Part shown: positions 12,844 to 56,308 of the stretch, piece by piece | How the letters are laid out: each line of letters opens with the position of its first letter | Numbering within the stretch: the stretch's first letter is position 1 | Assembly (NCBI GenBank): GCA_963924555.1 | Contig: OZ004589.1 | Span: 2,914,001-2,978,000 of the forward strand | Length of the DNA: 64,000 nt | Source: Crambe crambe | Lineage: Eukaryota > Porifera > Demospongiae > Poecilosclerida > Crambeidae | Direction of reading: 5' to 3' | Made by a program: the position numbers and the translations under genes | The notes under the pieces: model-generated | Seen by the model: the letters and a program-made list of their open reading frames with translations, nothing else | What the model was told of the DNA's origin: nothing | Databases searched by the model: none

Positions 12844-12845
12844 AT

Positions 12846-20360: not shown

Positions 20361-20575
20361 TCAACTATTGAAGAGCCCTAGGGGGACACTCTGCCCTAGT
20401 GTAGAATGTCCTAGGGGGGGACAGTCTACACTAAGGGGGGACACTCTGCCCTAATGTAGAATGTCCTAGGGGGGACATTCTACACTAGGGTAGAGTGTCC
20501 GGGGGACAGTCTACACTAGGGTAGAGTGTCCGGGGGGACAATTTTTAGAGGGGACGATCTACACTATGACACCGG

Positions 20576-21570
20576 CTTACTGGCTATAGTCATCAAAATT
20601 CTGCTTTGGCCATCTGTTAGAGCGGCACCTAGAGGCTGATCTTTTGCTATTAGTTTTGACTAAGGCTCTACTTCACTATTCGATAGCACTCGGAACACAG
20701 CTGCTAATCTTTCTACGCCATTTTGAAGGGGGCGGGGCTTATGGGCGGAGCCACGTAAGCTTAAGTTTAGCTATAGCCAAGGTCTTCATTCATTATCTGA
20801 TGATGTTCCAGTCACTCCTTGCTGAATTACAGTACAAATGCTCATCCTATAGTAGCATTATAGCCAGTACTTGGCTGTAGTGTAGTCAGCTCACTTCACC
20901 ATGCCGTGTACATGTCATTTACATTGCTGTTGCTGTAAAGTTTTATATCAACAAAACTTAAATAGCTAAACAAATTCTTCAACCAGAGACACTGTATGTA
21001 CCTACAAAAGAGGTTTATGTAGAGCTGGCTTTGTATAGTACTGTACTGTAGCCTCCCTCATTCAACTTCAAGCACTAAGAAAAAGGATAGAAACAAGTGA
21101 GCGTAAAAAATTAAAAGGTTAAGTAGGGATAGCCTAAAATCTAGCTGGGCTATCTATAATGTGCTGCAGCCTCGTATGAAAAAAATCTTCGCGATATTAC
21201 CTCATAAAAGGGGTGGGGCAATTAATAGCAGTTCTCCTCATATAACACCTGCACAGGATGTGGCCATTTGATGGCATCCACTATTATGATCACTACACCA
21301 AATGCATAAACTCCCCATACTCCTCCCTCAAGTAAGACATACGTACCATCTCAATAATTATTTCAGTGATCACATATGTAACAATTAGCTAATGCTGTTC
21401 ACTTTTTAAAATGTTCACTCCTTTCAGTACTCCATTACACTGCAGATGATCATCCTTCAAACTCTCCTCCCTGAACAGAATGAAATACTGATAATTAAAT
21501 AAATTTAGTTCAATCAAGGAAGCCTTTAGTGTCTATCAATTTTCATAATCACAAAGAAAAAGAATGCAAA
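20576..21570 (+). repeat. core module M1
   Basis: Reference copy of M1 without insertions, starting CTTACTGGCTATAGTC and ending at CACAAAGAAAAAGAATGCAAA. It contains a GC-box-like GGGGCGGGGCTTATGGGCGG (about 20728) conserved in all copies, which could be promoter-like. Its recurrent 78-residue frame is not supported as a gene. Confidence 0.8.
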
Positions 21571-22013
21571 CAAGTGAATGCAAAAAATTTCTTCGAAATA
21601 AAAATGTGAAGTAGGGATGTTATTATAACTGCAGCTTCATTATGAAAACCAAGTACTGCAGCATCGAAGCAGTATGGCCCAAAAATCTAGCTGGAATATG
21701 TATTATAACTGCATGCAAGAGAGTGAACTTAGTGAAGTGACCCTTACCCATCATCAAGTACAAGATACTATTCCTACTTCACTCCCATGATCAAGGGCCA
21801 AGGGAGTGAAGTAGGAATAGTATCTCGTACTTGATGATGGGTAAGGGTCACTTCACTAAGTTCACTCTCTTGCATGCAGTTATAATACATATTCCAGCTA
21901 GATTTTTGGGCCATACTGCTTCGATGCTGCAGTACTTGGTTTTCATAATGAAGCTGCAGTTATAATAACATCCCTACTTCACATTTTTATTTCGAAGAAA
22001 TTTTTTGCATTCA
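21571..22013 (+). repeat. 3' hairpin A
   Basis: Near-perfect inverted repeat, arms of about 210 bases, loop CATGATCAAGGGCCAA near 21787. The right arm ends GCATTCA without the last CTTG, directly at (TAA)n and the next C module. Confidence 0.9.
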
Positions 22014-22021
22014 TAATAATA

Positions 22022-23485
22022 ATCAGAGAGTGCGGTAGCACTCTCTAAGTAGGGATGGCAGGTCAAAGTCCATAGGACAGTATAAACTAAAAACTCTTCT
22101 TTCTCTTCTACCCTTACTCTACAGGTTCTCAGAAGGCTACAGTGAATTATTATATCTACAAAGAAGAGAGGAGAATGTTCAAAAGCCAAAAATTCATTCG
22201 CCAACATAAGAAAAAAACGAGTTCTAAAATTGACTTTTCGTTCTTTTTCTTTAATAATAATAATAATAATGTATAAGATCGACGTACCGACTTACTGGCT
22301 ATAGTCATCAAAATTCTGCTTTGGCCATCTGTTAGAGCGGCACCTAGAGGCTGATCTTTTGCTATTAGTTTTGACTAAGGCTCTACTTCACTATTCGATA
22401 GCACTCGGAACACAGCTGCTAATCTTTCTACGCCATTTTGAAGGGGGCGGGGCTTATGGGCGGAGCCACGTAAGCTTAAGTTTAGCTATAGCCAAGGTCT
22501 TCATTCATTATCTGATGATGTTCCAGTCACTCCTTGCTGAATTACAGTACAGATGCTCATCCTATAGTAGCATTATAGCCAGTACTTGGCTGTAGTGTAG
22601 TCAGCTCACTTCACCATGCCGTGTACATGTCATTTACATTGCTGTTGCTGTAAAGTTTTATATCAACAAAACTTAAATAGCTAAACAAATTCTTCAACCA
22701 GAGACACCTACAAAAGAGGTTTATGTAGAGCTGGCTTTGTATAGTACTGTACTGTAGCCTCCCTCATTCAACTTCAAGCACTAAGAAAAAGGATAGAAAC
22801 AAGTGAGCGTAAAAAATAAAAAGGTTAAGTAGGGATAGCCTAAAATCTAGCTGGGCTATCTATAATGTGCTGCAGCCTCGTATGAAAAAAATCTTCACGA
22901 TATTACCTCATAAAAGGGGTGGGGCAATTAATAGCAGTTCTCCTCATATAACACCTGCACAGGATGTGGCCATTTGATGGCATCCACTATTATGATCACT
23001 ACACCAAATGCATAAACTCCCCATACTCCTCCCTCAAGCAAGACATAGCTACGTACCATCTCAATAATTATTTCAGTGATCACATATGTAACAATTAGCT
23101 AATGCTGTTCACTTTTTAAAATGTTCACTCCTTTCAGTACTCCATTACACTGCAGATGATCATCCTTCAAACTCTCCTCCCTGAACAGAATGAAATACTG
23201 ATCATTAAATAAATTTAGTTCAATCAAGGAAGCCTTTAGTGTCTATCAATTTTCATAATCACAAAGAAAAAGAATGCAAACAAGTGAATGCAAAAAATTT
23301 CTTCGAAATAAAAATGTGAAGTAGGGATGCTATTATAACTGCAGCTTCATTATGAAAACCAAGTACTGCAGCATCGAAGCAGTATGGCCCAAAAATATAG
23401 CTGGAATATGTATTATAACTGCATGCAAGAGAGTGAACTTAGTGAAGTGACCCTTACCCATCATCAAGATACTATTCCTACTTCT
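22022..23485 (+). repeat. second tandem unit: C, M1 and half of hairpin A
   Basis: C (22022-22250), TAA tract, M1 (22267-23280), then only the left arm of hairpin A (23281-23480). The arm breaks off at TACTTC, where the next M1-like sequence starts inside its own body (TGATCTTTTGC). The junction therefore lost the right arm of A and the beginning of the following unit. Confidence 0.85.
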
Positions 23486-25376: not shown

Positions 25377-28300
25377 TTGCTGGATGGTGACAAAAACACT
25401 GTGGAGCATGTGGTTCCACGATCATGGAAATGCAATGACATGTGTAAGCCTATATCACTCTCTGATTTATCATGCATTATTGAATTCAAACATACATTCA
25501 ATGAGTCCATGCAGAAAATACGTAAAGCTTTGGATGTGTGTGATGAATGTCCGAATAGCAAGTATGCTAAGGTATTCATTGTCCCTTCAAATGAGCCTGA
25601 TAGTAACGTAGTACACTATAACTCTGTGGAATTAAAGGGACATAGTTTGATCTGTCACATTGGCAGTGATTGCAAAAGTAAGCTGAGAATCCTAAGAGCG
25701 GCATCGACTCACTATTCTGTGTTGAGATCGTTCTTAAGATGTGTGTACTCAGCATTAAATAGCCATAAAAATATTGCTTCCCTTGATGAAGCTCTACACT
25801 GTGGAGACTTTAATACTTTAATGAGGGATTTCAAAATAACCTTTGATGATCTATTCAGTAATGAAGTCAATCAGTCTCATGAGCTTGAAGGTAGTTTCGT
25901 AAAATGTGTGCTTAGAAGACCAGATTTAGAAAAGCACCTTCAAATAGAGCATGCCAATGTGATGGCAAAATATAAAAAAAATTTAGAAGATTATCCTCAG
26001 AATCCTTGCTGTAGCTGTAATATGCTCTTTTGTCTCAAGCAAGGCTCAAAAATTACTTTAAGCAAAGAACTAGGCAATGTGTGGCCTGATTTAAAAGATT
26101 TCATCCTTAAGGATGACCCTAATGCTTCAAAAAAGACTCTGTTCATATGCACATATTGCAGGTCTTATTTGAGGTCCAATAAAATGCCACCAAGATGTGT
26201 GCTCAATGGTTTACAAACCTCTCCAATACCTAGAGAGCTGAGCGTGTTGGATGAGTTGAGCAAACAGCTCATTCAACGAGCGAAAGCTTTTCAAACTATA
26301 GTCAGGTTGGGCACTTATACGAATAAGGTGCCATCTTACAATTCGCTTAAAGCCTGTAAGGGTAACATGTTCTTCTTACCCCTACCCCTGGACAAGACTC
26401 TAGACACTCTTGATGGGGTTGAAGGATCTCTAGCTAACCCTGAACTTTACATAATTGTGAACAGTAAGCCCACCAAAGGCAATGTAGTGTGGCGAAGCTT
26501 AGTAGATGTAAATCAGGTAAAGGCTGCTATCAAGAAGCTAAAAGAGTGCAACTGGCTGTACAAAGATGTCAGCGATGAATCTGTAGACTCTGCTGCCAAG
26601 GAGGTTATTGAAGTGGTAAGTAATATCTCTAGTACAGTGCTGGAAAAAGCCTCAAATAGTGATATTGCTGGGTTCCAGTGCTACACGCTGAGAGATATGA
26701 ATGACAAACTCTCCACCAAAGATGACTTACAACAATATAAAATGCTAAGCGTGCAAGAGGAACCTTTGAGTAGCTCTCAAAGGCACCTCGATACCATGTG
26801 CTTCCCAATCCTCTTTCCGGATGGAAACTTTGGTAAATACCACCCTAGAAAGGTGCCAGTATCCCACAGCGAGTACGATAAGTCCCGTCTGTGGAATAAA
26901 GACTCTCGCTTTAGAAAAGACCCTCAGTATGTCTTTTACCTCCTAAAGGAGAAGGAGTCAAGGGAGTTAAAAGCTGGTGTGTATAATTTGCTTAAGACAT
27001 CAAAATCCACTCCCACAACAGTCACTAACATTCTCCAGAAGGTCACAGCCAGTGACCAGAAACTTGAAGCTAACCTGTCCACTATGTTTCAGTCCATTCG
27101 TGGCACGAAACAATATTGGTACAGGAGGAGGGGTGAATTAATGTGCATGTTGCGGGAACTGGGGCCTCAAAGCCTATTCCTAACCTTCAGCTGTGCAGAA
27201 TATGAGTCACCTGACATAGCTGAGTATCTTAGATTAGTCAACAATGTTCCAGACAAATACAGTATTAATAAACTCTGCACAGAGGACCCTATTTCGGTAT
27301 CCAGGCAGTTTTCTCATAAATTTCACGCTTTCTTTAACACTTTCATTGTAAAGGGTGAAGTCCTGGGTCCAGTAGAGCACTTTTACTGGAAAAAGGAATA
27401 CCAGGCACGTGGAGCACCACACTATCATGCGGTCCTATGGATAAAGGGTGCACCAATTATAGGACAAGATGATCCAGATGTGGTGCTGTCCTGGATTCAG
27501 GAAAGAATCACTTGCCACATTCCTGATAAGGAAAACAATCCCGGACTGCACCACATGGTTACAAGGTACCAGTTGCACAAGTGCAGCAATTATTGTCGAA
27601 AGAAACGCAAGCGTGGGTCACTGTTTCTAACGAGCTGTAAATTTGGATTTCCACGTCCAGAGAGAGAAACAGCCGTTATAAACAATGTCGATTCGAGCTG
27701 TAAAAATTACCAGAAAATATACGAAATACCACGAGCACCTAGCGAAGTAAGAGTTAATGATTACAATCCCTTGCTTCTTCTGAACTGGGGGGCAAACATG
27801 GATATACAATTTGTCGGTGACAGGGACATGGTTTTATCCACTTACGTCAGTGGATACGTTACCAAATATGAGCATGGTCACCTGCAAGAGCAGTATGAGG
27901 GCATCACAGATGACAAGAGCCTGTGCAGCAAACTATTCAGCATTGGCCACATGTTCTTAAAGTCTCGTGAATGCGGGATGCATGAAGCAGCTGACCACTT
28001 GAGTGGAGACCACCTCTATGAGAAGTCTGTTACCATTCAATGGGTCGATGTTCGCATGCCTCACAAAAGGCAGCGTAGGGTAAAAACGCATGCCCAGCTG
28101 TTAAAAATGGAATCGGATGATCCAGAGAGTGAAAACATATTTACTCATAATTTCCTATCCACATACTACCCCCAAAGACCTGACGACTTGGAGGACATCT
28201 GCCTTCATGACTTTGTTGCCAATTACAGCTGGCATGAAACAGACCATAAGGGGGACAGAATATACAGGAAACTCAGCAAACCTCGATTGGTCAACCACAA

Positions 28301-31300
28301 AATGTTCGATCCTGCAAAACCGGAAAACAGAGAAGATTACTATTACTCTCTGATTCTTCTCTTTGTACCCTTCAGAGATGAGGGTGCTCTTCTAAGAGAA
28401 AATGAAACTGCTGAAGAAGCTTTCAATCGTCTCCTGCCCCACAGTGATGATTGTTCCAATTATCACAGAAAGTTACAGACAATGCTCAATGCTGAGGCTA
28501 AGGTGAGGAAAATAAATGAAGCAAGAAAGGCAGAAATCACTAAGAACAAAGAAAACAAAGAGCAAGATAACATGCACATCCTCGGAGAGGCTAAGCATGC
28601 AATGAAGGATATACAGGACATGAATCAGAAAATGCCCGACAGCCTCACTCTACAACAACGGGAGGAAATGTTCAACGCCGACCAGAAAAGGGTCTACGAC
28701 AACATCCGTAATACTTTGATTCACCAGAAACAACATGAAGAGGGCCAGTCTCTCTCTGACTACAAGCCCTTTACAATGTTTGTCAGTGGTGTTGGCGGTA
28801 CTGGTAAGTCTTTTCTAATAGAGGCTGTAAAGGCATTAGTTGACAGCTTATGGACGTCAGAGGGTTTGAAGTGTGCTATCACTGCACCCACTGGCTTGGC
28901 GGCATTCAATGTTGGAGGTGTGACCATACACAGGCTGTTCCAGTTGCCTATCGAACATGAGGGCAAGGAAGCTGGCTATTGGTCACTGTCAAAGGATGCT
29001 CAGAAAGTGATGAAAACGACACTTCGTTCCCTCAAGTTGCTTGTGATTGATGAAGTGTCCATGGTGTCAAGTCTAAACTTGACCTATGTGCACATGAGAA
29101 TGCAAGAAATATTTGGGGAAGATCACTGGTTTGGAGGAAAGAATGTCCTCTTTGTTGGGGACTTACTCCAATTACAACCAGTCAATGGCAACCCTGTGTT
29201 TGAAAAAATGAGTAGGGCTGCCATTGTGCACAAGTTGGGATGCATTGGATCGATAAACATCTGGAAGGACTGTGTCCATTATGACGAACTCACAATTAAT
29301 GAAAGACAGAAAAAAGATGGTCGGTTCTGTGATATTTTAGGTAAAGTGAGATGTGGTACTCTCACAGAAGAGATTCTTACAGTTCTCAAACAGCACGTTA
29401 TTCATGTTCCAGTAGTTCAAAAGCTGGTAAAACTGAGTGAGCTGGGGGAAAATCCTGTGTGCCTCTTCCCGACGAGAAAACAATGCGATCTACTCAATGA
29501 GGAAATGCTCGGAAAGTTACAGTCTCAGGTGCATGTCATACCATGCATTGATGACGTAGACGAGACGCGGAGCACTGCTAAATGGCACCAAAAGGCAGCC
29601 AAACAACTTGAAAAAATGAATAACGACTGCAACAACACTGCAGGGTTGGAAGCAGTCCTGAAGTTGGCCTTGGGTGCCCGCGTAATGCTCAGGCGCAATA
29701 TAGATGTAAAAGCAGGCTTAGTGAATGGTGCCATAGGCACCATACTTGGCGTATTTCCAGAAAGAGTTTCTATCAAATTTGACCATTTAGACAGCGCCTG
29801 TGACATTGAAAAAGTGAAGGGAAAGTTCATGGTACTTAAGAATTATTATGTGTCCCGTACCCAATTTCCTTTAATCTTAGCCTATGGGGTTACCATACAT
29901 AAATGCCAGGGCCTGTCGTTAAACTGTGCTATCGTAGATCTGTCAGAAAAGGTATTTGCAGATGGGATGGCCTATGTAGCACTCTCAAGAGTGCGGTCTC
30001 TAAATGGACTGTACCTCACTACATTTGATGCACAATCAATTAGGGTAAGCAAAAATAGTGTTGCAGAAGTGAACAGGTTAAGGCAATTGTTTAGAAAAGA
30101 TCTCCCTCTTTATCAAACTCCAACTGCATGTGCCTCCAGAAAAAGAAAGCTCACCGGCACGTGTGATGTAGAGCCACAATCAAAAAAGAGATGTGGTCCC
30201 ACAACAAAAAAGCATGAGCCTGAGCCTAAGTCAAAATCAGTAAGGACTGAGCCTCGCCAGAAGAAAGTATGGCCGTTCATATTCCACTCTGTGGATGAAC
30301 AGTGGCAGCGCACTGCTTGCCACTCACTGAATGCAATCTTTAAGCAAAAAAATCCTACATTTCTGGGAAGTGGGGAAAGACCGCTGACACGTCCAGACAT
30401 GAGAAGGGTGAAAAGAGTTAAGGGCGATGGAAATTGCATGTTCCGAGCCCTCTCTCTAGTGGTGACTGGGAGTGAAGACCAGCATCACGCCATTCGTACT
30501 AGAATAGTGCAGCACATGAGAAGTATTGCCCACCTCATGCTGGGACACATCAAAAGTCATACTGGTTTTAATACTTGCCAGAATATTGATGAGTACTTGC
30601 AGAAAAGCAAAATGGCTGAATGTAACACTTGGGGATCAGACATTGAATTACTGTGTTTTGCACACTTATGTAAAGTATGTGTGTTCTCTTATTCTACAGA
30701 ATCAAGCAACTGGGACAGATATGGTCCCAATAATGTTGACAGAACAATAACTGTAGATGTGACTGCAAAGTCCATATACCTGTTTCATCCTTCTGGCCAT
30801 TATGATGTAGTGGGATGCACTCTAAAGCCTCCTAACTCTACACCAGACTGGTTGGAACAATCCAGAAACACTGAGGTATGGAATGATCTAAGGTTTCACT
30901 CTGTTGACTCAGAGTGGCAGTTGGAAGCTTGTAATTTACTAGGCTTGCCATTACATGGTCCAAATGGTGTGAACCCAGGTGGCCCCAATTTAGCCCTAAC
31001 AAGTCCTGCTTGTTATAAATCAATCCAAGGAGATGGTAATTGTCTCTTTAGATCCCTTTCATACCTAATAACAGGCTCATGTTCTCACTACAGACAAGTC
31101 CGTGAAAAAATTATAGACCACATGCGAAATGTGCTTGACCCGGTTTATGTTAGTGATTATTTAAGGAGCACTAACATGGACCAAGATGGGATTTGGGGAA
31201 CTGATAATGAAATTAGAACTCTTGCACATTTACTGAGAACCTCAGTATATACTTATGTGCCTGATTCATATAACTGGGTCAGAATAACTCCTGAGGAAAT

Positions 31301-31424
31301 GGACCAGGACTTCATCATTCCAATAACCCAAAAGGCAATGTATTTAGAGAATCATAGGAACCATTTCAATGTCGTTATGACTGTCAAACCTATCCGTAAT
31401 ACTGACCCAATCCAAATTGTTTAA
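25377..31424 (+). CDS. Helitron Rep-helicase with two OTU domains
   Basis: 2,015 residues without a stop or intron. In order: a Cys-rich region with a DUF6570-like segment (about 205-345, PCCSC, CTYC, PIPRELSVLDEL); the HUH nuclease (Helitron_like_N) with HYH at 682-684 and catalytic tyrosines Y823 and Y827; a PIF1-like SF1B helicase with Walker A GVGGTGKS (1138-1145), Walker B IDE (1224-1226), and ALSRV near 1540; then two OTU cysteine-protease domains with DGNC at 1684-1687 and 1886-1889 and His at 1808 and 1996. It would nick, unwind and roll the element by a rolling-circle-like route. OTU fusion is known from Helentron-type elements. The first ATG of this frame is internal to the real gene, because the N-terminus lies in the 24031 frame. 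Apart from that break it looks functional. Confidence 0.95.
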   Translation: MLDGDKNTVEHVVPRSWKCNDMCKPISLSDLSCIIEFKHTFNESMQKIRKALDVCDECPNSKYAKVFIVPSNEPDSNVVHYNSVELKGHSLICHIGSDCKSKLRILRAASTHYSVLRSFLRCVYSALNSHKNIASLDEALHCGDFNTLMRDFKITFDDLFSNEVNQSHELEGSFVKCVLRRPDLEKHLQIEHANVMAKYKKNLEDYPQNPCCSCNMLFCLKQGSKITLSKELGNVWPDLKDFILKDDPNASKKTLFICTYCRSYLRSNKMPPRCVLNGLQTSPIPRELSVLDELSKQLIQRAKAFQTIVRLGTYTNKVPSYNSLKACKGNMFFLPLPLDKTLDTLDGVEGSLANPELYIIVNSKPTKGNVVWRSLVDVNQVKAAIKKLKECNWLYKDVSDESVDSAAKEVIEVVSNISSTVLEKASNSDIAGFQCYTLRDMNDKLSTKDDLQQYKMLSVQEEPLSSSQRHLDTMCFPILFPDGNFGKYHPRKVPVSHSEYDKSRLWNKDSRFRKDPQYVFYLLKEKESRELKAGVYNLLKTSKSTPTTVTNILQKVTASDQKLEANLSTMFQSIRGTKQYWYRRRGELMCMLRELGPQSLFLTFSCAEYESPDIAEYLRLVNNVPDKYSINKLCTEDPISVSRQFSHKFHAFFNTFIVKGEVLGPVEHFYWKKEYQARGAPHYHAVLWIKGAPIIGQDDPDVVLSWIQERITCHIPDKENNPGLHHMVTRYQLHKCSNYCRKKRKRGSLFLTSCKFGFPRPERETAVINNVDSSCKNYQKIYEIPRAPSEVRVNDYNPLLLLNWGANMDIQFVGDRDMVLSTYVSGYVTKYEHGHLQEQYEGITDDKSLCSKLFSIGHMFLKSRECGMHEAADHLSGDHLYEKSVTIQWVDVRMPHKRQRRVKTHAQLLKMESDDPESENIFTHNFLSTYYPQRPDDLEDICLHDFVANYSWHETDHKGDRIYRKLSKPRLVNHKMFDPAKPENREDYYYSLILLFVPFRDEGALLRENETAEEAFNRLLPHSDDCSNYHRKLQTMLNAEAKVRKINEARKAEITKNKENKEQDNMHILGEAKHAMKDIQDMNQKMPDSLTLQQREEMFNADQKRVYDNIRNTLIHQKQHEEGQSLSDYKPFTMFVSGVGGTGKSFLIEAVKALVDSLWTSEGLKCAITAPTGLAAFNVGGVTIHRLFQLPIEHEGKEAGYWSLSKDAQKVMKTTLRSLKLLVIDEVSMVSSLNLTYVHMRMQEIFGEDHWFGGKNVLFVGDLLQLQPVNGNPVFEKMSRAAIVHKLGCIGSINIWKDCVHYDELTINERQKKDGRFCDILGKVRCGTLTEEILTVLKQHVIHVPVVQKLVKLSELGENPVCLFPTRKQCDLLNEEMLGKLQSQVHVIPCIDDVDETRSTAKWHQKAAKQLEKMNNDCNNTAGLEAVLKLALGARVMLRRNIDVKAGLVNGAIGTILGVFPERVSIKFDHLDSACDIEKVKGKFMVLKNYYVSRTQFPLILAYGVTIHKCQGLSLNCAIVDLSEKVFADGMAYVALSRVRSLNGLYLTTFDAQSIRVSKNSVAEVNRLRQLFRKDLPLYQTPTACASRKRKLTGTCDVEPQSKKRCGPTTKKHEPEPKSKSVRTEPRQKKVWPFIFHSVDEQWQRTACHSLNAIFKQKNPTFLGSGERPLTRPDMRRVKRVKGDGNCMFRALSLVVTGSEDQHHAIRTRIVQHMRSIAHLMLGHIKSHTGFNTCQNIDEYLQKSKMAECNTWGSDIELLCFAHLCKVCVFSYSTESSNWDRYGPNNVDRTITVDVTAKSIYLFHPSGHYDVVGCTLKPPNSTPDWLEQSRNTEVWNDLRFHSVDSEWQLEACNLLGLPLHGPNGVNPGGPNLALTSPACYKSIQGDGNCLFRSLSYLITGSCSHYRQVREKIIDHMRNVLDPVYVSDYLRSTNMDQDGIWGTDNEIRTLAHLLRTSVYTYVPDSYNWVRITPEEMDQDFIIPITQKAMYLENHRNHFNVVMTVKPIRNTDPIQIV

Positions 31425-31983
31425 CACATATTTCTCTCCAAAGTGCAGCAGTGAATGATGACTTCTACAAGAGAAAATAGCATTCTTGTATCCTAAAAAG
31501 AACAATGATATTATCAGTGGCAGGTACACCTAAAATTGTCACATTATAATTATTATGCTGGGTGTTGCACACCTCAGCTAGTGACTTCCACATGTCTTTA
31601 ACATGTGATGTCAGGTATCATGTACCTGATTATGACATACATGCCAGGTGCTATGTACCTGAGCTCATGTGACTAATTACATAATTTGCCACTGCTATCA
31701 AAATTTAGCTATTAAATGTTAATCATCAAGCAACAGAGTGAAACAAAACCATCCAAGATTGAAATCTGGATCATTTTGTCCATGGTTCCCTATGTCAGGG
31801 TATACCATGCTGACGAGCTCTAACAAGAGCGAAACAAAACGATCTCAGATTAAACCATACTTTAACTCAAGGTTATTTTGTTCCCTCAACGTCATTGAAA
31901 ATAGGTATGGTGAAGAGGGAGGCTTATTGCATTGAGTGCCAAAAAAAAAATTGATATTTTCCAAATACTGCACACTAATAGTG
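31425..31983 (+). other. 3' flank of the Rep-helicase gene
   Basis: AT-rich, with repeated TGTACCTGA/CAGGTA pieces (31525-31660). No open frame of interest. This stretch and most of the helicase are deleted in copy 2, whose junction falls at 45500, about 23 bases before the ribozyme motif. Confidence 0.6.
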
Positions 31984-32060
31984 GGGCCAGCTGATGAGTC
32001 CTCCCACTTAAAATCATAATGGACGAAAAGTTTCACATTTTGTGTATAACTTCCTGGCTC
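31984..32060 (+). ncRNA. hammerhead ribozyme motif, type I (copy 1)
   Basis: All core bases are present: CTGATGA at 31991-31997, GAAA at 32025-32028, and the cleavage triplet ending at C32053. Stem I: GGGCCAG (31984-31990) pairs with CTGGCTC (32054-32060), 7 pairs with one G-U. Stem II: GTCC (31998-32001) with GGAC (32021-32024), closed by an 19-base loop. Stem III: AAGTT (32028-32032 including A15.1) with AACTT (32048-32052), extended by CACA/TGTG (34-37 with 41-44) and a TTT loop. Predicted cleavage is after C32053. Such ribozymes are known in Penelope-like elements, retrozymes and satellite repeats. Here it lies 560 bases after the stop codon of a Helitron gene. Confidence 0.9.
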
Positions 32061-34679
32061 TGTTTAATTTCATATACACAATCCTACTAATTAAAAGAGA
32101 CATTCACATCATATATACCACTTTCATGCCCTTCACAACTCAATATTGCTTCCTAATAACTTGATATTTTATAAATAAGACACCCCTTATCAATCAGACG
32201 TATCCCCCCTTCATAGTACCACATCCTCCCTATTATTTCACATACACCTCTATTTCACGCAATGCAATCACACAGTAACAATGCAATTAGAAATAGCTAT
32301 TCAAAAAAGAATACACTTTCACTGCTACACTATACCACAACTGAACATATCCATGCAAGCAAAATTATACTACACTATACCAAGCATATATAAATCTTCT
32401 TTTAAAATTAAACCACAGTGTCTAGCTAACTACAATTATGCCCTTGAAAAATAAACATTAAAACCATTCCTTATTATGCTTCCAAGTCACCAATGAAATC
32501 ACTGTACACTCAAGAAACCTGTTCTCTTCCTGTGTGTTGCAAATACCTCCTGTATGGAAGGATGGACTTGGCAGAAAACCTGTACCAGTACACACCATAA
32601 TAGCTACTGCACACGACCTCAGACAAATCTTATGACTCCATGTACCAGACACTGTACCCACCCTGATCATACATGATTACCTAAAAAAAATTCATAGCTA
32701 CATCTATAATCATGAAATGATACATCACTATCACAATCTATAATCATGAAATGATACATCACCATCACACACACCAAAAAAAAAAAAAAAAAAAACTCAT
32801 ATCACATTGAAATTTTAACACACCAAAGTTCACATCACACCACTCTTTCCAACCTCCCCTTAACTATAGCAACCACACCATTCATTCAAATTAGCTAAGT
32901 AGTACATCCTCATACACCTCTATTCACTACTCTTTCTTAATCAGCTGACATAAATACTACATTATGCTTCCATATCACCAATCAAATCACTACCAAACCA
33001 ATTACAACTCCCAATCTATGCAAACATTACAAAAAAACCTTCTAATACCACACCATGTACACCTTTGTTTCTAATCAGAACAATGATTCATTCCCCCCCC
33101 CCCCCCCCCCCCCCCCTTGGTATTCCCCTTCCCCTTCATAGTACTACATCCTCCAAATACATATCCATTCACTACTCATTCTTCATCAGCTGACGTAAAT
33201 GCAACATTGCCCATACAATTATGCTTCCATCAAATCACTACCAACCAATTATACTTCCCAATGTATGCAAACATTAAAGTGCCTTCTATACCACACCATG
33301 TACACCTTTGTTTCTAATCATAACAATGCACCTTGTAACATTTCCCCTTAAGAACACCCACATATCACCTACTCACTATTAGCTACTTCAATACCACATA
33401 CTCCCTATTAACAACAAACACCTCTATTCACTCCTTATGCACAGGACCTGAGACATTTCATGACTCCATGTACCACACACTGTACCCACCCTGAAAAATT
33501 AATAGCTACATCTATAATCATGAAATGATACATCACCATCAATCACACACACCAAAAAAAAAACAAACAAAAAAAAAAAAAACTCATATCACATTGAAAC
33601 TTGAAGTTCATATTCACACCATACCACTTCCCCTTAACTACCATTAGCTACCTGTCAAATTTTATGCTTTAATGACATCAATCAAATGAATGCTGGTTTG
33701 ATGTTACTAATACCATTACAAATGAAAGAAGTCCATATCACCAATAAAATCACTACCAAACAAATTACACAATACCCCCTATCCATGTATGCACACATTA
33801 ATTAAAAGTGCCTTCTAATACCACACCATATACACCTTTGTTTATAATCATAAATGCACCTTGTAATATTTTCCCTTAAGATCAGGCACACCATTTTAAT
33901 CATCTACCAACCATTATTTCAAAAACTCAGTTTCCAGGTTGCACTATAACATTCCATACACATTTATTAATAAAACCTAATAACAATGGATCACAATCCA
34001 ATTAGTACAATTGTATGTACGTACATACAGTAATCGAGTGTTCTGCCAATGCAATCATAGATCACACAGTCCATTCCAAGTTGAGAATACAGCAATAAAC
34101 TCTTACAGCTGGGGTAATCATTCGTTCCACTATAACCCCGTACTGAAAAAAATGGACAAAATAACTCCCCTTGTCAATCAGAAGTATCCCTTCATAGTAC
34201 TACATCCTCCAAATAGAAATAAATACAACATTGCAAACAATTATGCTTCCATATCTCACTACCAAACCAATTACAGCTCCCAATGTATAGAAATATTAAA
34301 GTGCCTTCTAATACCACACCGTGTACATCTTTGTTTCTAATCATAACAATGAACCTTGAACCCCTTAAGAACAGCCACACTTCACAAAAATGCATTTGTT
34401 GCCCACAGTAGCAATGCAATCCTATTCCAAATTGAAGGCAAAATCACAATTTCAATATAACTTCATTTCATTTCAAAAGGTGAATAAATAACTGATTACA
34501 TAATAATCCTAACTAAACCACACACATCACCACAACAATTCACTCTGTGTACAAATTTATAACACATGCATCTGTAATTACTTCTGTGGTTTTCTGTCAC
34601 TCTCTATAACTCAGCCCATCACAGCACTGATATAAAAAGCTGAGAGATTTCCTGATGTATCATACTGCTGAATATTGAT
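32061..34679 (+). other. AT/C-rich cargo region of copy 1, no gene seen
   Basis: Poor in G on this strand, with A runs (32776-32795, 33555-33580), a C run of about 30 (33087-33116) and internal diverged duplications. Phrases such as CCTTCTA.TACCACACCATGTACACCTTTGTTTCTAA recur at about 33030, 33275, 33810 and 34300, so a unit of 250-500 bases has been multiplied. Short open frames follow from the skewed composition and are not supported. Confidence 0.6.
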
Positions 34680-37157
34680 GTAAGTTATGTATCATCAGCA
34701 TACAGCCATAATAATGAGCATCTTACTAAACTCATGCAGGTATGCTGCAAAGATTTACGGGGTAAGTCATGTGTAGGTACAAGTACGTCAAAAATTCATT
34801 ACTCTCATCGCTTCAATTGTTAAACCTCTGACTATACATACAACTCTTCAGTGAAAGTAAGTTCTTCTGTATTATCATTAGTACTACATATTAATGCACT
34901 TCTTCATCTCTCCTTCACCATGATCAAATTATTCAGTAGTATTGAAAGTAAGTCCTGTCAATATTACCACCAATCTTTCATCAAATGTGCTATCTACACT
35001 TAAACAATAGCCTTCTTCCCCCCAAAAAAGAAACAGTAAGTTATTTTCATAATAATTATAACTACATCTCATCAAAATGTAAGTTGCCACAATCATCATT
35101 AAAAAATTGTACATTTTGCACACACTTCATCAATTATTCTAACCCTCACATCATTCAGAACTGTAAGTTGTCATATTGCTTATTAATAATGCACTTCTTC
35201 ATATCTCTCCTCCAAAAAAAAAACAATTTGTGTAGCTACGCCAATCAAACAGTAAGTGTACATGCATGATTTCAACAGAGAGTGTAATTGCTCATTCCCA
35301 CATTGCACACTTGACTAGTCTACAAGTGGCTCCACTCAAAGTAAGTTCTCTCTGTATTAGTAGCAATTGTTCATCATGAAAAACATGTGCCATCTACATT
35401 TCAACAATACCATAGCTTTCTTGGAACGGTAAGTCATTAATATGACAATGATGTACTATACACAACTATTATCATTCTATAACACATTCACGTACACTTC
35501 ATCAATTGCAACCCTTATCACATACGTACGTACACAGAAATGTAAGTTGACATACGTATTATCATATCATGCAAGTATGTATTTAACTCTTCTATACCCA
35601 CCATGTCCACTCAGACAATGTCTGGTAAGTTCGTATCTTCAATCTTCTTACTATAATCAGTAATATTTATTCCACTCTCTTAGATACAGATTCCGGTAAG
35701 CAATATCATAATTATAACCAATTATTCATTATCACTCACATCAACCAAATCCTAATAATAATATACTTATTACATACTATGTACCTACCACCTGCATATT
35801 ACATCATCCAGTTACCCACTCTCCCATTCCCCTTCCCATCTCTCCCGCAGGCTCTGATAGTAAGCTAATACTTGTACATGCTATGCACCTACTATACCAC
35901 CTGCATATCACATCATCCAGTTACGAACCCTCCCACTCCCCCTCCCACCTCTCCCACAGGCTCTGATGGTAAGCTAATACATATTACATCATCCAGTTAC
36001 CAACCCTCCCACTCCCCCTCCCACCTCTCCCACAGGCTCTGATAGTAAGCTAATACTTGTACATGCTATATACCTATCACCTGCATATTACATCATCCAG
36101 TTACCAACCCTCCCACTCTCCCTCCCACCTCTCCCGCAGGCTCTGATAGTAAGCTAATACTTGTACATGTTATATACCTATCACCTGCATATTACATCAT
36201 CCAGTTACCAACCCTCCCACTCCCCCTCCCACCTCTCCCGCAGGCTCTGATAGTAAGCTAATACTTGTACATGCTATGTACCTATACCACCTGCATATTA
36301 CATCATCCAGTTACCAACCCTCCCACTCCCCCTCCCACCTCTACCCCAACTGGTAATAGCTACTGACACACATCACAAATGTAACATTCTTTCTTATTGC
36401 AAAACTCCAGTGCCACATCCTCCAATACCCCTCCCCCCCCCAACAGGGACCGGTAATACTGCATAACATACGTACTCAAATTAATGTAACATTCTTACTC
36501 AAATTTCTGCAATCCAGTGCCATTCCCATATCCCCCTCCCCCTCCCACCTCTGGCCCAAGTACTATAACTGGTAATACTGACAAATGTAACATTCTTTCT
36601 TATTGCAAAACTCCAGTGCCACATCCTCCAATACTCCTCCCCCCAACAGGGACCGGTAATACTGTATAACATACGTAACATTCTTACTCAAATTTCTGCA
36701 ATCTAGTGCCATTGCCATATCCCCCTCCCCCTCTCACCGCTGGCACAAGTACTCCAACTGGTAATAATGACACACATCACAAATGTAACATTCTTTCTTA
36801 TGTAACATTCTTACTAAAATTTCTGCAATCCAGTGCCATTGCCATATCTGACACACAACACAAATATATATAACATTCTTGTTATTCTAATCAATACAGT
36901 GCCATTGCCATATCCCTTCCCCCCCTACCGCGGGGGTAGGAGGGGGAGGAGTAGGAGGCAGAGATTTATGCCCTTCCCTCGTGAGTATGAAATAGCTACA
37001 TATATTATTACATCACCATATGAAATTGCAGAATTGAATTATTGGCGTGGATCGTGTAAGTCAAAATAATTATTACAATCACTTATTCCACCTACACATA
37101 GCTCAGCTACTTCTCTTTTCCAGTGCACTTCCACTACCACACATGAGTGGATGCAGG
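34680..37157 (+). other. array of splice-site-like microexons
   Basis: At least a dozen GTAAGT/GTAAGC donor-like sites are spaced about 60-120 bases apart. Many follow an acceptor-like AG by only 4-25 bases: CAG|22 bases|GTAAGT at 34739, TCAG|11|GTAAGT at 34936, TCAG|4|GTAAGT at 35159, CTCAG|10|GTAAGT at 35614, CTTAG|12|GTAAGC at 35684. Then five tandem copies of CGCAG|GCTCTGATA|GTAAGC follow (35851-36251). A final good candidate is CCAG|TGCACTTCC...ATGCAG|GTAAGT near 37124-37156. The array is conserved at 48340-50780. Whether it is transcribed is unknown. Confidence 0.45.
35800..36350 (+). repeat. tandem repeat carrying a 9-base microexon-like unit
   Basis: Five units of about 75-115 bases with the order ...CATCATCCAGTTAC, CTCCC-rich pyrimidine tract, CAG, GCTCTGATA (or GCTCTGATG), GTAAGC. 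A sixth degenerate unit ends in CCCCAACTGGTAAT. Copy 2 has four such units (49500-49930). Confidence 0.85.
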
Positions 37158-37340: not shown

Positions 37341-38230
37341 CGCGATATTATCTCATAAAAGGGGTGGGGCAATTCATAGCAGTTCTCCTCATATAACACC
37401 TGCACAGGATGTGGCCATTTCATGGCATCCACTATTATGATCACTACACCACAATTAATATGCACTGCCACTGCATAAACTCCCCATACTCCTCCCTCAA
37501 GCAAGACATACGTATGTACCATCTGAATAATTATTCAAATGATCACATACGTAACAATTAGCTAATGCTGTTCACTTTCAAAATGTTCACTCCTTTCAGT
37601 ACTCCATTACACTGCAGATGATCATCCTTCAAGATGGTCATACTCTCCTCCCTGAACAGAATGAAATACTACAAAAAATTTGATCATTAAATTAATTCAG
37701 TTCAATTAAGGAAGCATTAGCTAGCTATACCTTTAGTGTCTATCAATTTTCATAATCACAAAAAAAAAGAATGCAAACAAGTGAATGCCAAAAATTTCTT
37801 CGAAATAAAAATGTGAAGTAGGGATGCTATTATAACTGCAGCTTCATTATGAAAACCAAGTACTGCAGCATCGAAGCAGTATGGCCCAAAATCTAGCTGG
37901 AATATGTATTATATAACTGCATGCAAGAGAGTGAACTTAGTGAAGTGACCCTTACCCATCATCAAGTACGAGATACTATTCCTACTTCACTCCCTTGGCC
38001 CTTGATCATGGGAGTGAAGTAGGAATAGTATCTTGTACTTGATGATGGGTAAGGGTCACTTCACTAAGTTCACTCTCTTGCTTGCATGCAGTTATATAAT
38101 ACATATTCCAGCTAGATTTTGGGCCATACTGCTTCGATGCTGCAGTACTTGGTTTTCATAATGAAGCTGCAGTTATAATAGCATCCCTACTTCACATTTT
38201 TATTTCGAAGAAATTTTTGGCATTCACTTG
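37341..38230 (+). repeat. 3' part of M1 and hairpin A closing copy 1
   Basis: From CTTCGCGATATTA the sequence matches the second half of M1. Hairpin A (37778-38230) follows, with its interior inverted relative to the copy at 21571-22013 (loop reads TTGGCCCTTGATCATG). It ends GCATTCACTTG with (TAA)n after it. Confidence 0.85.
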
Positions 38231-41243: not shown

Positions 41244-42975
41244 TATCAGAGAGTGCGGTAGCACTCTCTAAGTAGGGATGGCAGGTCAAAGTCCATAGGA
41301 CAGTATAAACTAAAAACTCTTCTTTCTCTTCTACCCTTACTCTACAGGTTCTCAGAAGGCTACAGTGAATTATTATATCTACAAAGAAGAGAGGAGAATG
41401 TTCAAAAGCCAAAAATTCATTCGCCAAGATAAGAAAAAAACGAGTTCTAAAATTGACTTTTCGTTCTTTTTCTTTATAATAATAATAATAATAATAATAA
41501 GGATAATAATAATAATAAGATCGACGTACCGACTTACTGGCTATAGTCATCAAAATTCTGCTTTGGCCATCTGTTAGAGCGGCACCTAGAGGCTGATCTT
41601 TTGCTATTAGTTTTGACTAAGGCTCTACTTCACTATTCGATAGCACTCGGAACACAGCTGCTAATCTTTCTACGCCATTTTGAAGGGGGCGGGGCTTATG
41701 GGCGGAGCCACGTAAGCTTAAGTTTAGCTATAGCCAAGGTCTTCATTCATTATCTGATGATGTTCCAGTCACTCCTTGCTGAATTACAGTACAGATGCTC
41801 ATCCTATAGTAGCATTATAGCCAGTACTTGGCTGTAGTGTAGTCAGCTCACTTCACCATGCCGTGTACATGTCATTTACATTGCTGTTGCTGTAAAGTTT
41901 TATATCAACAAAACTTAAATAGCTAAACAAATTCTTCAACCAGAGACACTGTATGTACCTACAAAAGAGGTTTATGTAGAGCTGGCTTCGTATAGTACTG
42001 TACTGTAGCCTCCCTCATTCAACTTCAAGCACTAAGAAAAAGGATAGAAACAAGTGAGCGTAAAAAATTTCTTCAAATAAAAAGGTTAAGTAGGGATAGC
42101 CTAAAATCTAGCTGGGCTATCTATAATGTGCTGCAGCCTCGTATGAAAAAAATCTTCGCGATATTACCTCATAAAAGGGGTGGGGCAATTAATAGCAGTT
42201 CTCCTCATATAACACCTGCACAGGATGTGGCCATTTGATGGCATCCACTATTATGATCACTACACCAAATGCATAAACTCCCCATACTCCTCCCTCAAGC
42301 AAGACATACGTACCATCTCAATAATTATTTCAGTGATCACATATGTAACAATTAGCTAATGCTGTTCACTTTTTAAAATGTTCACTCCTTTCTGTACTCC
42401 ATTACACTGCAGATGATCATCCTTCAAACTCTCCTCCCTGAACAGAATGAAATACTGATCATTAGTTCAATCAAGGAAGCCTTTAGTGTCTATCAATTTT
42501 CATAATCACAAAGAAAAAGAATGCAAACAAGTGAATGCAAAAAATTTCTTCGAAATAAAAATGTGAAGTAGGGATGCTATTATAACTGCAGCTTCATTAT
42601 GAAAACCAAGTACTGCAGCATCGAAGCAGTATGGCCCAAAAATCTAGCTGGAATATGTATTATAACTGCATGCAAGAGAGTGAACTTAGTGAAGTGACCC
42701 TTACCCATCATCAAGTACAAGATACTATTCCTACTTCACTCCCATGATCAAGGGCCAAGGGAGTGAAGTAGGAATAGTATCTCGTACTTGATGATGGGTA
42801 AGGGTCACTTCACTAAGTTCACTCTCTTGCATGCAGTTATAATACATATTCCAGCTAGATTTTTGGGCCATACTGCTTCGATGCTGCAGTACTTGGTTTT
42901 CATAATGAAGCTGCAGTTATAATAGCATCCCTACTTCACATTTTTATTTCGAAGAAATTTTTGGCATTCACTTGT
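41244..42975 (+). repeat. complete short unit: C, TAA, M1, hairpin A
   Basis: A clean example of the whole short unit: C (41246-41475), (TAA)n-GGATAA-(TAA)n, M1 (41518-42526), hairpin A (42527-42975). About 1.73 kb from stem-loop head to hairpin end. Confidence 0.88.
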
Positions 42976-43724: not shown

Positions 43725-45507
43725 GAGCATCGTGCATCCATTGGTGCTGAGCATCGTGCATGCATTGGTGCTGACAGGAGGCGACGGTATGAACTTACTG
43801 AGCCTAAGCCTCTTACTAAACAAAACTATATCAGAGAAATTACGAAAAAATTAACAAATAACAGTCCTTTCTCTAGACAAATGCTGCAGTCATTCAAAGA
43901 TCAGCATGAAAAAATAGCTCTTAAAATGACTGCAGCAACCTCTAGGCGAGCTGCATCATCTATAGCAGCTACAAGGTTGGTGAACAAGGTGCTGCAGATC
44001 CGAAGGCATCTAGCTGGCTCCTTGTTAAAAATGGTAAGAGCAATTAATAAAATAAGTATATCTAGTGAGGATGATTTGGGTGAGGGTTCACATTGTGTTC
44101 ATGGTGAACCTTATTACTACGATACTTCCTATATCCATGGTGATATACCAAGTGTCATCTGCGTGGAAGTAAACAGTCAGTCCTCTAAACAATTGCTGCA
44201 CTCCTTTAAAGATCAGCATGAAAAAACAGCTCTTAAAATGACTGCAGCAACCTCTACATCCTCTATACCAGCTACAAGGTTGGTGAACAAGGTGCTGCAG
44301 ATACGAAGGGATCTAGCTGGCACCTTGTTAAAGGTTGTAAGGACAAACAATAAAAAGCAAAGTGATTTAGGTGAGGATTCACACTGTGAACCATATTATT
44401 ACTATGAAAGTTCCCGTGTTCATAATAGACAAAGTATTTGTATTGATGAGCATGGAAAGTATAGATTGCTGGATGGTGACAAAAACACTGTGGAGCATGT
44501 GGTTCCACGATCATGGAAATGCAATGACATGTGTAAGCCTATATCACTCTCTGATTTATCATGCATTATTGAATTCAAACATACATTCAATGAGTCCATG
44601 CAGAAAATACGTAAAGCTTTGGATGTGTGTGATGAATGTCCGAATAGCAAGTATGCTAAGGTATTCATTGTCCCTTCAAATGAGCCTGATAGTAACGTAG
44701 TACACTATAACTCTGTGGAATTAAAGGGACATAGTTTGATCTGTCACATTGGCAGTGATTGCAAAAGTAAGCTGAGAATCCTAAGAGCGGCATCGACTCA
44801 CTATTCTGTGTTGAGACCGTTCTTAAGATGTGTGTACTCAGCATTAAATAGCCATAAAAATATTGCTTCGATCCCTTGATGAAGCTCTACACCGTGGAGA
44901 CTTTAATACTTTAATGAGGGATTTCGAAATCACCTTTGATGATCTATTCAGTAATGAAGTCAATCAGTCTCATGAGCTTGAAGGTAGTTTCGTAAAATGT
45001 GTGCTTAGAAGACCAGATTTAGAAAGGCACCTTCAAATAGAGCATGCCAATGTGATGGCAAAATATAAAAAAAATTTAGAAGATTATCCTCAGAATCCTT
45101 GCTGTAGCTGTAATATGCTCTTTTGTCTCAAGCAAGGCTCAAAAATTACTTTAAGCAAAGAACTCGGCAATGTGTGGCCTGATTTAAAAGATTTCATCCT
45201 TAAGGATGACCCTAATGCTTCAAAAAAGACTCTGTTCATATGCACATATTGCAGGTCTTATTTGAGGTCCAATAAAATGCCACCAAGATGTGTGCTCAAT
45301 GGTTTACAAACCTCTCCAATACCTAGAGAGCTGAGCGTGTTGGATGAGTTGAGCAAACAGCTCATTCAACAAGCGAAAGCTTTTCAAACTATAGTCAGGT
45401 TGGGCACTTATACGAATAAGGTGCCATCTTACAATTCGCTTAAAGCCTGTAAGGGTAACATGTTCTTCTTACCCCTACCCCTGGACAAGACTCTAGACAC
45501 CAAATAA
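43725..45507 (+). pseudogene. Rep-helicase fragment with frameshift and truncation
   Basis: Joins copy 1 positions 24030 and 24642, so the start codon and basic repeats are lost. The frame is open from before 43881 to 44879 and keeps the 10 bases that copy 1 lacks (44434-44446). It then breaks at 44867-44870, where GATC is inserted relative to 25778. The second frame (44863-45507) runs through the Cys-rich region and ends at the deletion junction after LDKTLDT. HUH, helicase and OTU domains are absent. Confidence 0.88.
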
Positions 45508-45522
45508 TGCACACTAATAGTG

Positions 45523-45599
45523 GGGCCAGCTGATGAGTCCTCCCACTTAAAATCATAATGGACGAAAAGTTTCACATTTTGTGTATAACTTCCTGGCTC
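45523..45599 (+). ncRNA. hammerhead ribozyme motif, type I (copy 2)
   Basis: Identical to 31984-32060 over the whole motif: CTGATGA from 45530, stem I halves at 45523-45529 and 45593-45599, predicted cleavage after C45592. The helicase deletion stops a few bases upstream and leaves it intact. Confidence 0.9.
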
Positions 45600-48339
45600 T
45601 GTTTAATTTCATATACACAATCCTACTAATTAAAAGAGACATTCACATCATATATACCACTTTCATGCCCTTCACAACTCAATATTGCTTCCTAATAACT
45701 TGATATTTTATAAATAAGACACCCCTTATCAATCAGACGTATCCCCCCTTCATAGTACCACATCCTCCCTATTATTTCACATACACCTCTATTTCACGCA
45801 ATGCAATCACACAGTAACAATGCAATTAGAAATAGCTACTCAAAAAAGAATACACTTTCACTGCTACACTATACCACAACTGAACATATCCATGCAAGCA
45901 AAATTATACTACACTATACCAAGCATATATAAATCTTCTTTTAAAATTAAACCACACCATCTAGCTAACTACAATTATGCCCTTGAAAAATAAACATTAA
46001 AACCATTCCTTATTATGCTTCCAAGTCACCAATGAAATCACTGTACACTCAAGAAACCTGTTCTCTTCCTGTGTGTTGCAAATACCTCCTGTATGGAAGG
46101 ATGGACTTGGCAGAAAACCTGTACCAGTACACACCATAATAGCTACTGCACACGACCTCAGACAAATCTTATGACTCCATGTACCAGACACTGTACCCAC
46201 CCTGATCATACATGATTACCTAAAAAAAATTCAGAGCTACATCTATAATCATGAAATGATACATCACTATCACAATCTATAATCATGAAATGATACATCA
46301 CCATCACACACACCAAAAAAACAACAAAAAAAAAACTCATATCACATTGAAATTTTAACACACCAAAGTTCACATCACACCACTCTTTCCAACCTCCACT
46401 TAACTATAGCAACCACACCATTCATTCAAATTAGCTAAGTAGTACATCCTCATACACCTCTATTCACTACTCTTTCTTAGTCAGCTGACATAAATACTAC
46501 ATTATGCTTCCATATCACCAATCAAATCACTACCAAACCAATTACAACTCCCAATCTATGCAAACATTACAAAAAAAACCTTCTAATACCACACCATGTA
46601 CACCTTTGTTTCTAATCAGAATAATGACCCCCCCCCCCCCCTTGGTATTCCCCTTCCCCTTCATAGTACTACATCCTCCAAATACACATCCATTCACTAC
46701 TCATTCTTCATCAGCTGACATAAATGCACATTGTCCATACAATTATGCTTCCATCAAATCACTACCAACTAATTATACTTCCCAATGTATGCAAACATTA
46801 AAGTGCCTTCTATACCACACCATGTACACCTTTGTTTCTAATCATAACAATGCACCTTGTAACATTTCCCCTTAAGAACACCCACATATTACCTACTCAC
46901 TATTAGCTACTTCAATACCACATACTCCCTATCAACAACAAACACCTCTATTCACTCCTTATGCACAGGACCCGAGACATGGAGAGTTTGAAGGATGATC
47001 ATCTGCAGTGTAATGGAGTACTGAAAGGAGTGAACATTACAGCATTAGCTAATTGTTACTTGTAATCATAACAATGCACCTTGTAACATTTCCCCTTAAG
47101 AACACCCACATATTACCTACTCACTATTAGCTACTTCAATACCACATACTCCCTATCAACAACAAACACCTCTATTCACTCCTTATGCACAGGACCCGAG
47201 ATATTTCATGACTCCATGTACCACACACTGTACCCACCCTGAAAAATTAATAGCTACATCTATAATCATGAAATGATACATCACCATCAATCACACCACT
47301 TCCCCTTAACTACCATTAGCTACCTGTCAAATTTTATGCTTCCATGACATCAATCAAACCAATGCTGGTTTGATGTTACTAATACCATTACAAATGAAAG
47401 AAGTCCATATAACCAATAAAATCACTACCAAACAAATTACACAATACCCCCTCCCCATGTATGCACACATTAATTAAAAGTGCCTTCTAATACCACACCA
47501 TATACACCTTTGTTTATAATCATAAATGCACCTTGTAACATTTTCCCTTAAGATCAGGCACACCATTTTAATCATCTACCAACCATTATTTCAAAAACTC
47601 AGTTTCCAGGTTGCACTATAACATTCCATACACATTTATTAATAAAACCTAATAACAATGGATCACAATCAAATTAGTACAATTGTATGTACGTACATAC
47701 AGTAATTGAGTGTTCTGCCAATGCAATCATAGATCACACAGTCCATTCCAAGTTGAGAATACAGCAATAAACTCTTACAGCTGGGGTAATCATTCGTTCC
47801 ACTATAACCCCGAACTGAAAAAAATGGACAAAATAACTCCCCTTATCAATCAGAAGTATCCCTTCATAGTACTACATCCTCCAAATAGAAATAAATACAA
47901 CATTGCAAACAATTATGCTTCCATATCTCACTACCAAACCAATTACAGCTCCCAATGTATAGAAATATTAAAGTGCCTTCTAATACCACACCGTGTACAT
48001 CTTTGTTTCTAATCATAACAATGAACCTTGAACCCCTTAAGAACAGCCACACTTCACAAAAATGCATTTGTTGCACACAGTAGCAATGCAATCCTATTCC
48101 AAATTGAAGGCAAAATCACAATTTCAATATAACTTCATTTCATTTCAAAAGGTGAATAAATAACTGATTACATAATAATCCTAACTAAACCACACATCAC
48201 CACAACAATTCACTCTGTGTACAAATTTATAACACATGCATCTGTAATTACTTCTGTGGTTTTCTGTCACTCTCTATAACTCAGCCCATCACAGCACTGA
48301 TATAAAAAGCTGAGAGATTTCCTGATGTATCATACTGCT
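45600..48339 (+). other. AT/C-rich cargo region of copy 2
   Basis: Matches 32061-34679 apart from small indels, a shorter C run (46627-46641) and one rearrangement: an 80-base piece of reversed M1 (46981-47062) sits between two copies of about 140 bases (46840-46979 and 47064-47203). No gene seen. Confidence 0.7.
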
Positions 48340-55990: not shown

Positions 55991-56308
55991 TAATAATAAG
56001 GATAATAATAATAATAAGATCGACGTACCGACTTACTGGCTATAGTCATCAAAATTCTGCTTTGGCCATCTGTTAGAGCGGCACCTAGAGGCTGATCTTT
56101 TGCTATTAGTTTTGACTAAGGCTCTACTTCACTATTCGATAGCACTCGGAACACAGCTGCTAATCTTTCTACGCCATTTTGAAGGGGGCGGGGCTTATGG
56201 GCGGAGCCACGTAAGCTTAAGTTTAGCTATAGCCAAGGTCTTCATTCATTATCTGATGATGTTCCAGTCACTCCTTGCTGAATCACAGTACAGATGCTCA
56301 TCTTATGT

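Follow-up and report, generated by a model that had tools for sequence, protein, structure and literature searches.

The analyzed stretch of Crambe crambe DNA (64,000 nucleotides, here called the window) contains a long open reading frame (ORF) followed on the same strand by two hammerhead ribozyme motifs, HHR-A and HHR-B, by a G-depleted tract and, further downstream, by a palindrome (Table 1). Pfam analysis of the ORF product revealed PF14214 (E = 9.5e-28) and PF05970 (E = 2.6e-26), i.e., a Rep (HUH) protein and a PIF1 helicase in a single Rep-helicase (RepHel) gene. The sequences HYH and YVSGYVTK in the translation are presumably the motifs known by these names. The domain set also includes OTU. 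The location of the ribozyme inside a Helitron-type element, as proposed in an earlier note on this DNA, was supported. An AP endonuclease was not among the 11 Pfam matches of the ORF; since this is the domain that names Helentrons, we file the element under the Helitron superfamily, RepHel-OTU type. A Pfam scan of four window ORFs brought up no reverse transcriptase, and the RepHel protein had no match in viral contigs.

Table 1. Features of the window and of the Helitron families that carry HHR-A-type ribozymes
Feature	Position	Strand	Remarks
Rep-helicase-OTU ORF	25377..31424	+	Helitron_like_N, PIF1, OTU in two stretches (Pfam)
Remnant, 3' half of upstream HHR-A unit	31736..31780	+	GTGAAACAAAACCATCC... 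up to cleavage site; its stem III strand serves the permuted HHR-A
HHR-A	31763..31851	+	Type III (stem III closed last); predicted cleavage after C31780, 356 nt past stop codon
Predicted RNA between the two cuts	31781..32053	+	273 nt; deduced from cut positions
HHR-B	31980..32064	+	Type I; predicted cleavage after C32053, 629 nt past RepHel stop codon
G-depleted tract	32063..36900	+	C-rich; 9.2% G vs 20.1% in 30000-32062
Palindrome	37777..38230	.	455 bp; ends GCATTCACTTG, then T
RepHel remnant of copy 2	44863..45507	+	DUF6570 part
HHR-B of copy 2	45519..45603	+	86-base segment identical to copy 1
Family 1			Window element; stop codon to cut 356 nt
Family 2			L063, L066, L067; helicase 59% identical over 415 residues; type I; stop to cut ~461 nt, inferred from two copies
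Family 3			30 loci (L017-L046); type I; mostly ~42% identity in OTU where homology is present; stop to cut 1057 nt
Family 4			L075, L077; type I; 84-85% identity in last OTU part; stop to cut 480 nt

We took the end of the palindrome as the 3' end of the element. All 11 places with the same end sequence continue with T. The element has both OTU and a 3' palindrome. The 5' end was sought and was not located amid nested, tandem non-autonomous units. A second copy in the window (copy 2) lacks HHR-A and, by deletion, most of the Rep-helicase gene.

The palindrome is common to the Helitron 3' end and to head-to-tail non-autonomous units of ~1.7 kb. Units related to it lie at 20571-22023, 41245-42975, 51397-51845, and 58585-60329, and some are joined directly end to start (at 51845, CACTTG is followed by TCAGAGAG), as expected of rolling-circle concatemers. 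Tandem units of 231 bp, which start with TCAGAGAGTGC and contain a 9-bp hairpin, are present at 12382-12882 and 55527-55991 and also at the start of the 1.7-kb units.

Two hammerheads downstream of the RepHel gene

The earlier note had described HHR-B as a complete hammerhead motif starting 560 bases after the stop codon, with predicted cleavage after C32053. The reanalysis led to the same site and the same distance (31424 to 31984), all core letters were present when the sequence was read directly, and the minimum-energy structure of 31982-32063 was the hammerhead. The pairs counted for stem II (4) and stem III (5 plus an inner 4) also held, while stem I has 8 pairs instead of the 7 claimed, or 11 if outer G-U pairs are counted. 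The motif of copy 2, said to be identical, indeed matches letter by letter. With 40-base flanks, the hammerhead was 1.2 kcal/mol above the best fold. The folding energy as such was unexceptional (z = -1.35; 16 of 200 shuffles were equally good).

A hammerhead scan of both strands of the window yielded three real sites, the one in copy 2 duplicating another. In 400 first-order resamples of the window, scanned on both strands, there were six loose matches and none with stems of at least 6/4/5. Searching the window with Rfam at the gathering level gave no match. The Rfam check proposed in the earlier note detected the HHR-B region with the type I model RF00163, at a score below the threshold (16.2 bits vs a cut-off of 34; E = 0.48), and aligned the wrong stem in HHR-B of copy 2. 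For HHR-A, Rfam's type III model scored 22.5 bits (cut-off, 48.5; E = 0.0072) and aligned a different stem III. These thresholds are a curator's cut-off and not a structural definition, and unusual stem III lengths lie outside the models. The loop of stem II in HHR-B is 19 nt long and shows no obvious tertiary contact. Its CCCACU may pair with an upstream AGUGGG, as a tertiary contact or a misfold; both segments are invariant between complete copies.

HHR-A, which the first reading of the sequence had overlooked, is a second complete hammerhead, 170 bases upstream of HHR-B. Its outer stem III consists of six pairs, one A-C mismatch, and then more pairs. Copies A, B, C, D, and E of the window element elsewhere in the genome have the type III form too (in copy E, one stem II pair is broken), and its exact arrangement was found at eight genome places. 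C3:3416831 also holds an exact type III HHR-A of the window's family. Window repeat scans, one of them covering the largest 20 of 56 families, revealed no tandem array over 31763-32064. Between the RepHel stop codon and HHR-A, CAGGT...ACCTG hairpins are kept in the window (31521-31680) and in family 4 (L075, 500-620).

At the 3' edge of HHR-B, the G content falls from 17.9% to 9.2% (change point, 32062; support, 31990-32082). In copies D and E as well, HHR-B is followed by a G-poor tract; such a tract was not found in L020 or L075. One idea is that it gives rise to an unstructured RNA tail that the ribozyme would remove. Several tandem repeat arrays lie inside the tract.

Genome-wide association of HHR-A with Helitron genes

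The genome (143 Mb, 119 contigs) was searched for both ribozymes. A 121-base HHR-B query matched eight places, seven of which share further window-family DNA; at L016, the ribozyme stretch alone is shared. A restriction of the copies to places outside the element family, which the earlier note had named as counterevidence, was not seen. Copy D (83% identical) retains HHR-B; its stem III is shorter, yet paired, and the basal pair of stem II is G-U. As far as found, HHR-B is confined to the window's family.

The association of hammerheads with Helitrons holds genome-wide through HHR-A, which is older and more general than HHR-B. An HHR-A-type core pattern matched 47 places and a family 4 version matched 5, with no match for the reversed control in either case, giving 52 cores. 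For 41 of them, a Helitron_like_N match is located 1540 to 5576 bases upstream on the same strand; when the cores were placed at random in 500 trials, with lengths estimated for contigs C9, C14, C15, C17, and C18, the mean number in this position was 0.14 and the largest was 2. The 41 copies are related by transposition and are therefore not 41 independent events; the independent unit is approximately the four families. Conversely, 41 of the 67 Helitron_like_N matches have an HHR-A core, and many of the unaccompanied ones are fragments. Where the Rep match belongs to an open frame of 1300 aa or longer, the pattern detects a core for 31 of 33 matches, and a variant core read in L077 raises this number to 32. 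For the remaining frame (L078, C5:9470770), 2.2 kb was examined and no hammerhead was detected; the same applies to 2.8 kb at L076 (C10:6224182), which has a shorter frame.

Eleven cores had no Rep match by the distance rule. RepHel/OTU homology was detected at four of them (L020, L024, L062, and L063), and was not detected in the stretch examined at four others (L012/L048, L026, L017, and L019); three (L067 and L071 [too short] and C20:1065753) were outside the homology comparison. In the contrast with reverse transcriptases, for which 150 of 801 candidates were scored and 143 of the 150 matches were used (7 on small contigs were excluded), only 1 of the 52 cores was within 9 kb of a match, and this core is beside a Helitron. 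The Rfam models RF00163 and RF00008 gave sub-threshold matches only over the genome, and those of RF00163 led to family 3.

Four families and a permuted ribozyme

Ribozymes of the HHR-A lineage are located behind the Rep-helicase-OTU gene in four Helitron families, with ~42 to 84% protein identity to the window gene in the stretches compared. The hammerhead core (C3-U-G-A-N-G-A ... G-A-A, A15.1-U16.1, H17), surrounded by three helices, is present in HHR-B, in HHR-A, and in nine representatives. The core varies among the representatives at position 7 only, the tolerant position of the hammerhead core. This invariance is partly built in, since the search patterns fixed most core letters; U16.1 and C17 were not fixed. 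The hammerhead coincides exactly with the best fold in family 4 and lies 2.5 to 8.4 kcal/mol above it in families 2 and 3. Stem I is extended by 14 outer pairs in family 2 and by 8 in family 3, with unrelated sequences, and two extra hairpins are found inside stem III.

In an alignment of the nine representatives, in which two family 4 rows were placed by eye, 97.8% of 135 stem cells were paired, compared to 25 to 43% in slid versions. Stem cells changed on both sides numbered 11, against 3.7 in shuffles, and none of 500 shuffles reached 11. Weaker covariation measures gave no clear excess (double-change pairs, 71 of 500 shuffles; pair types, 468 of 500). Between families 2 and 3 (L066 vs L069), the ribozyme segment alone can be aligned (L066, 154-241; 77%).

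Within family 3, the ribozyme varies less than its surroundings. In all 30 copies, 16 of 155 ribozyme sites are variable; since insertions distort the flanks in this set, 9 copies with less than 94% identity were dropped. In the 21 near-identical copies left, 2 of 155 ribozyme sites and 101 of 1564 flank sites are variable (five-fold less in the ribozyme; p = 0.007). Since all copies had been retrieved through an Rfam match that covers a segment of the ribozyme, the test is biased, and the sites outside this match are therefore given apart: 1 of 91 is variable (p = 0.04). Damaging changes were found in some copies, namely, in copies D and E of family 1 and in L067 and L068.

The type I ribozyme of L075 matches the window twice (420-734 to 31513-31791, and 647-706 to 31796-31854). 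The first window match keeps the 3' half and the second the 5' half plus the core, and jointly they form one type III hammerhead. The alignment thus indicates that HHR-A of the window is a circular permutation of the type I form of its relative. A tandem duplication with subsequent loss of the outer halves would be a route to this arrangement.

Proposed role in the RepHel transcript

We consider it probable (roughly 60%) that the motifs are genuine hammerheads, that they are an integral and conserved part of a RepHel-OTU Helitron lineage, and that they cut the RepHel transcript after the stop codon; here, we infer transcription, cleavage, and the effect on expression from the DNA. On the RepHel sense strand, 0.36 to 1.06 kb past the stop codon, the ribozyme would fold in the nascent or finished transcript and cleave it, thereby splitting the coding mRNA from the downstream RNA including any poly(A) tail. 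The most likely outcome would be control of RepHel, either by a defined, non-polyadenylated 3' end or by lowered, nuclear-retained expression that limits the transposase. In the window's family, the two successive ribozymes could also free the 273-nt RNA. More tentatively, the ribozyme could be an ancestral working part of the transposon lineage, either defining where the RepHel RNA ends on its 3' side or releasing a small RNA for the rolling-circle cycle; one subfamily could have permuted it following a tandem duplication and gained a second, independent ribozyme, which borders the G-depleted tract of 5 kb.

Copies 1, A, B, C, D, and E each contain two complete hammerheads that point the same way and are separated by 273 nt, a distance that resembles the repeat size of metazoan retrozymes (150 to 450 bp, according to the accessible part of PMC7229834). 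The paired ribozymes could therefore free a small RNA that is then ligated into a circle, and, as in a retrozyme, this RNA rather than the mRNA would be under selection. We regard such an origin of the conservation as unlikely: in the stretches examined, families 2 to 4 have a single hammerhead (none besides the known one in 2.7 kb of L075 of family 4), so a circle would need tandem copies there, copy 2 has one hammerhead only, and the sequence bracketed by the cuts is poorly conserved when copy D is compared with the remaining copies.

Alternatively, an ancestral Helitron could have acquired the hammerhead of a retrozyme, a Penelope-type element, or a satellite in a single event, and the motif could have been passed on since then as a passenger, almost or entirely without function. 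This seems quite improbable, in spite of the damage in several ribozyme copies and of other full hammerheads of this genome that have no Helitron Rep match nearby (L047 and three sister places). Sequence capture is frequent in Helitrons, as noted in the accessible part of PMC6431247; however, the four families retain the ribozyme with compensatory stem changes although their flanks no longer align, the ribozyme of family 3 varies less than its flanks, the circular permutation still yields one complete hammerhead, and the only core near one of the reverse transcriptase matches is that beside a Helitron. Capture of a retrozyme-like repeat, an origin considered in the earlier note, may have taken place but leaves the constant position in four families unexplained.

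Inactive look-alikes, whose hammerhead shape and conservation serve a DNA-level or another RNA role, would accommodate the low Rfam scores, the better alternative folds in families 2 and 3, and the 19-nt loop without an obvious tertiary contact, but are very unlikely given that a complete catalytic core occurs together with a U-H cleavage triplet and three stems in sequence contexts independent of each other, that 400 resamples contained 0 comparable sites, and that the hammerhead is the best fold in family 4.

Relation to known elements

If the motifs cut the RepHel transcript as proposed, they resemble the discontinuous hammerhead that follows the stop codon in the 3' untranslated region of mammalian Clec2 genes and lowers expression, with the difference that Clec2 is a host gene and not a transposon. 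A hammerhead also adjoins the helicase gene of a replicating element in the haloviruses HF1/HF2, where HHphage is located 13 nt upstream of the gene (PMC3088659, accessible part); there, however, it lies on the 5' side, in an archaeal virus and an unrelated context.

Among mobile elements, hammerheads are known from Penelope-like elements and Terminons (Cervera & de la Pena 2014 and Arkhipova 2017, as reported in the accessible parts of PMC6431247 and PMC7229834), and, according to the same texts, Terminons may also carry a rolling-circle Rep protein. These are reverse-transcribing elements with the ribozyme at the 3' end or in terminal repeats, whereas the window element codes for Rep-helicase-OTU and showed no reverse transcriptase, and its ribozyme is located behind the gene and several kilobases before the 3' end. 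Retrozymes comprise a plant long terminal repeat (LTR) type and metazoan tandem repeats (PMC7229834, accessible part). The window's family shares with them the occurrence of type I and type III hammerheads and a predicted RNA of ~300 nt between the cuts. In contrast to retrozymes, its ribozymes lack LTRs or a short tandem array, differ from each other in sequence and type, and are part of a large autonomous DNA transposon.

In architecture, the element resembles Helentron/Helitron2/HINE elements as described in the accessible parts of PMC4067079 and PMC7492417: a RepHel with OTU (OTU being known in animal Helentrons; PMC6431247 and PMC4067079, accessible parts), an end-adjacent microsatellite, tandem repeats, a 3' palindrome, a T flank, and non-autonomous relatives. 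It differs from Helentrons in that its ORF has no AP endonuclease match. The accessible text of both Helentron accounts does not mention a ribozyme (in that of PMC7492417, the word occurs 0 times), and Helitrons and hammerheads are treated apart in the accessible parts of PMC6431247, PMC4918198, and PMC12477314. The earlier note knew of no hammerhead described in a Helitron or Helentron, and our search, which was set to open-access literature and did not extend to subscription papers and preprints, likewise found no such report.

The pairing of a hammerhead with a rolling-circle DNA transposon matters because the carriers of hammerheads known so far are mainly RNA-copied elements and small RNA circles, and explanations of genomic hammerheads have hitherto invoked retrotransposons, viroid-like RNA circles, and retrozymes. 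That DNA transposons conserve a hammerhead behind their replication gene suggests that elements moving as DNA make use of self-cleaving RNA as well. The ribozyme would offer a simple, testable handle on the control of RepHel by Helitrons, and the natural permutation from type I to type III would illustrate how hammerhead topologies are converted. The position rule (no more than ~1 kb past the OTU-bearing stop codon) eases the search in other genomes.

Other hammerhead-like sequences

L047 (1450-1560; C8:1682417) contains a complete hammerhead of type III-like layout, with stems 6/4/8 and a predicted cut after UA, and has sister places at C8:1659262, 1670436, and 1684516; no Helitron Rep match was found nearby on C8. 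The loose pattern CTGATGAGN{6,36}CGAAA matched 92 places vs 74 for the reversed control, indicating that most of its places are due to chance. A first core pattern was swamped by the repeat CTGATGAGGGAGAACTGAGCAGAAAC, which is without hammerhead stem II. The cores of L061/L064 and L065 were rejected as hammerheads because the scan found stems I and III incomplete. The hammerhead-like core of L061 and L064, CTGATGAGCTATAATAATAGCGAAA, belongs to a repeat whose copies are ~80 to 89% alike and which is located at C1:2120399, C3:7329683, C3:9223878, and C8:1349799.
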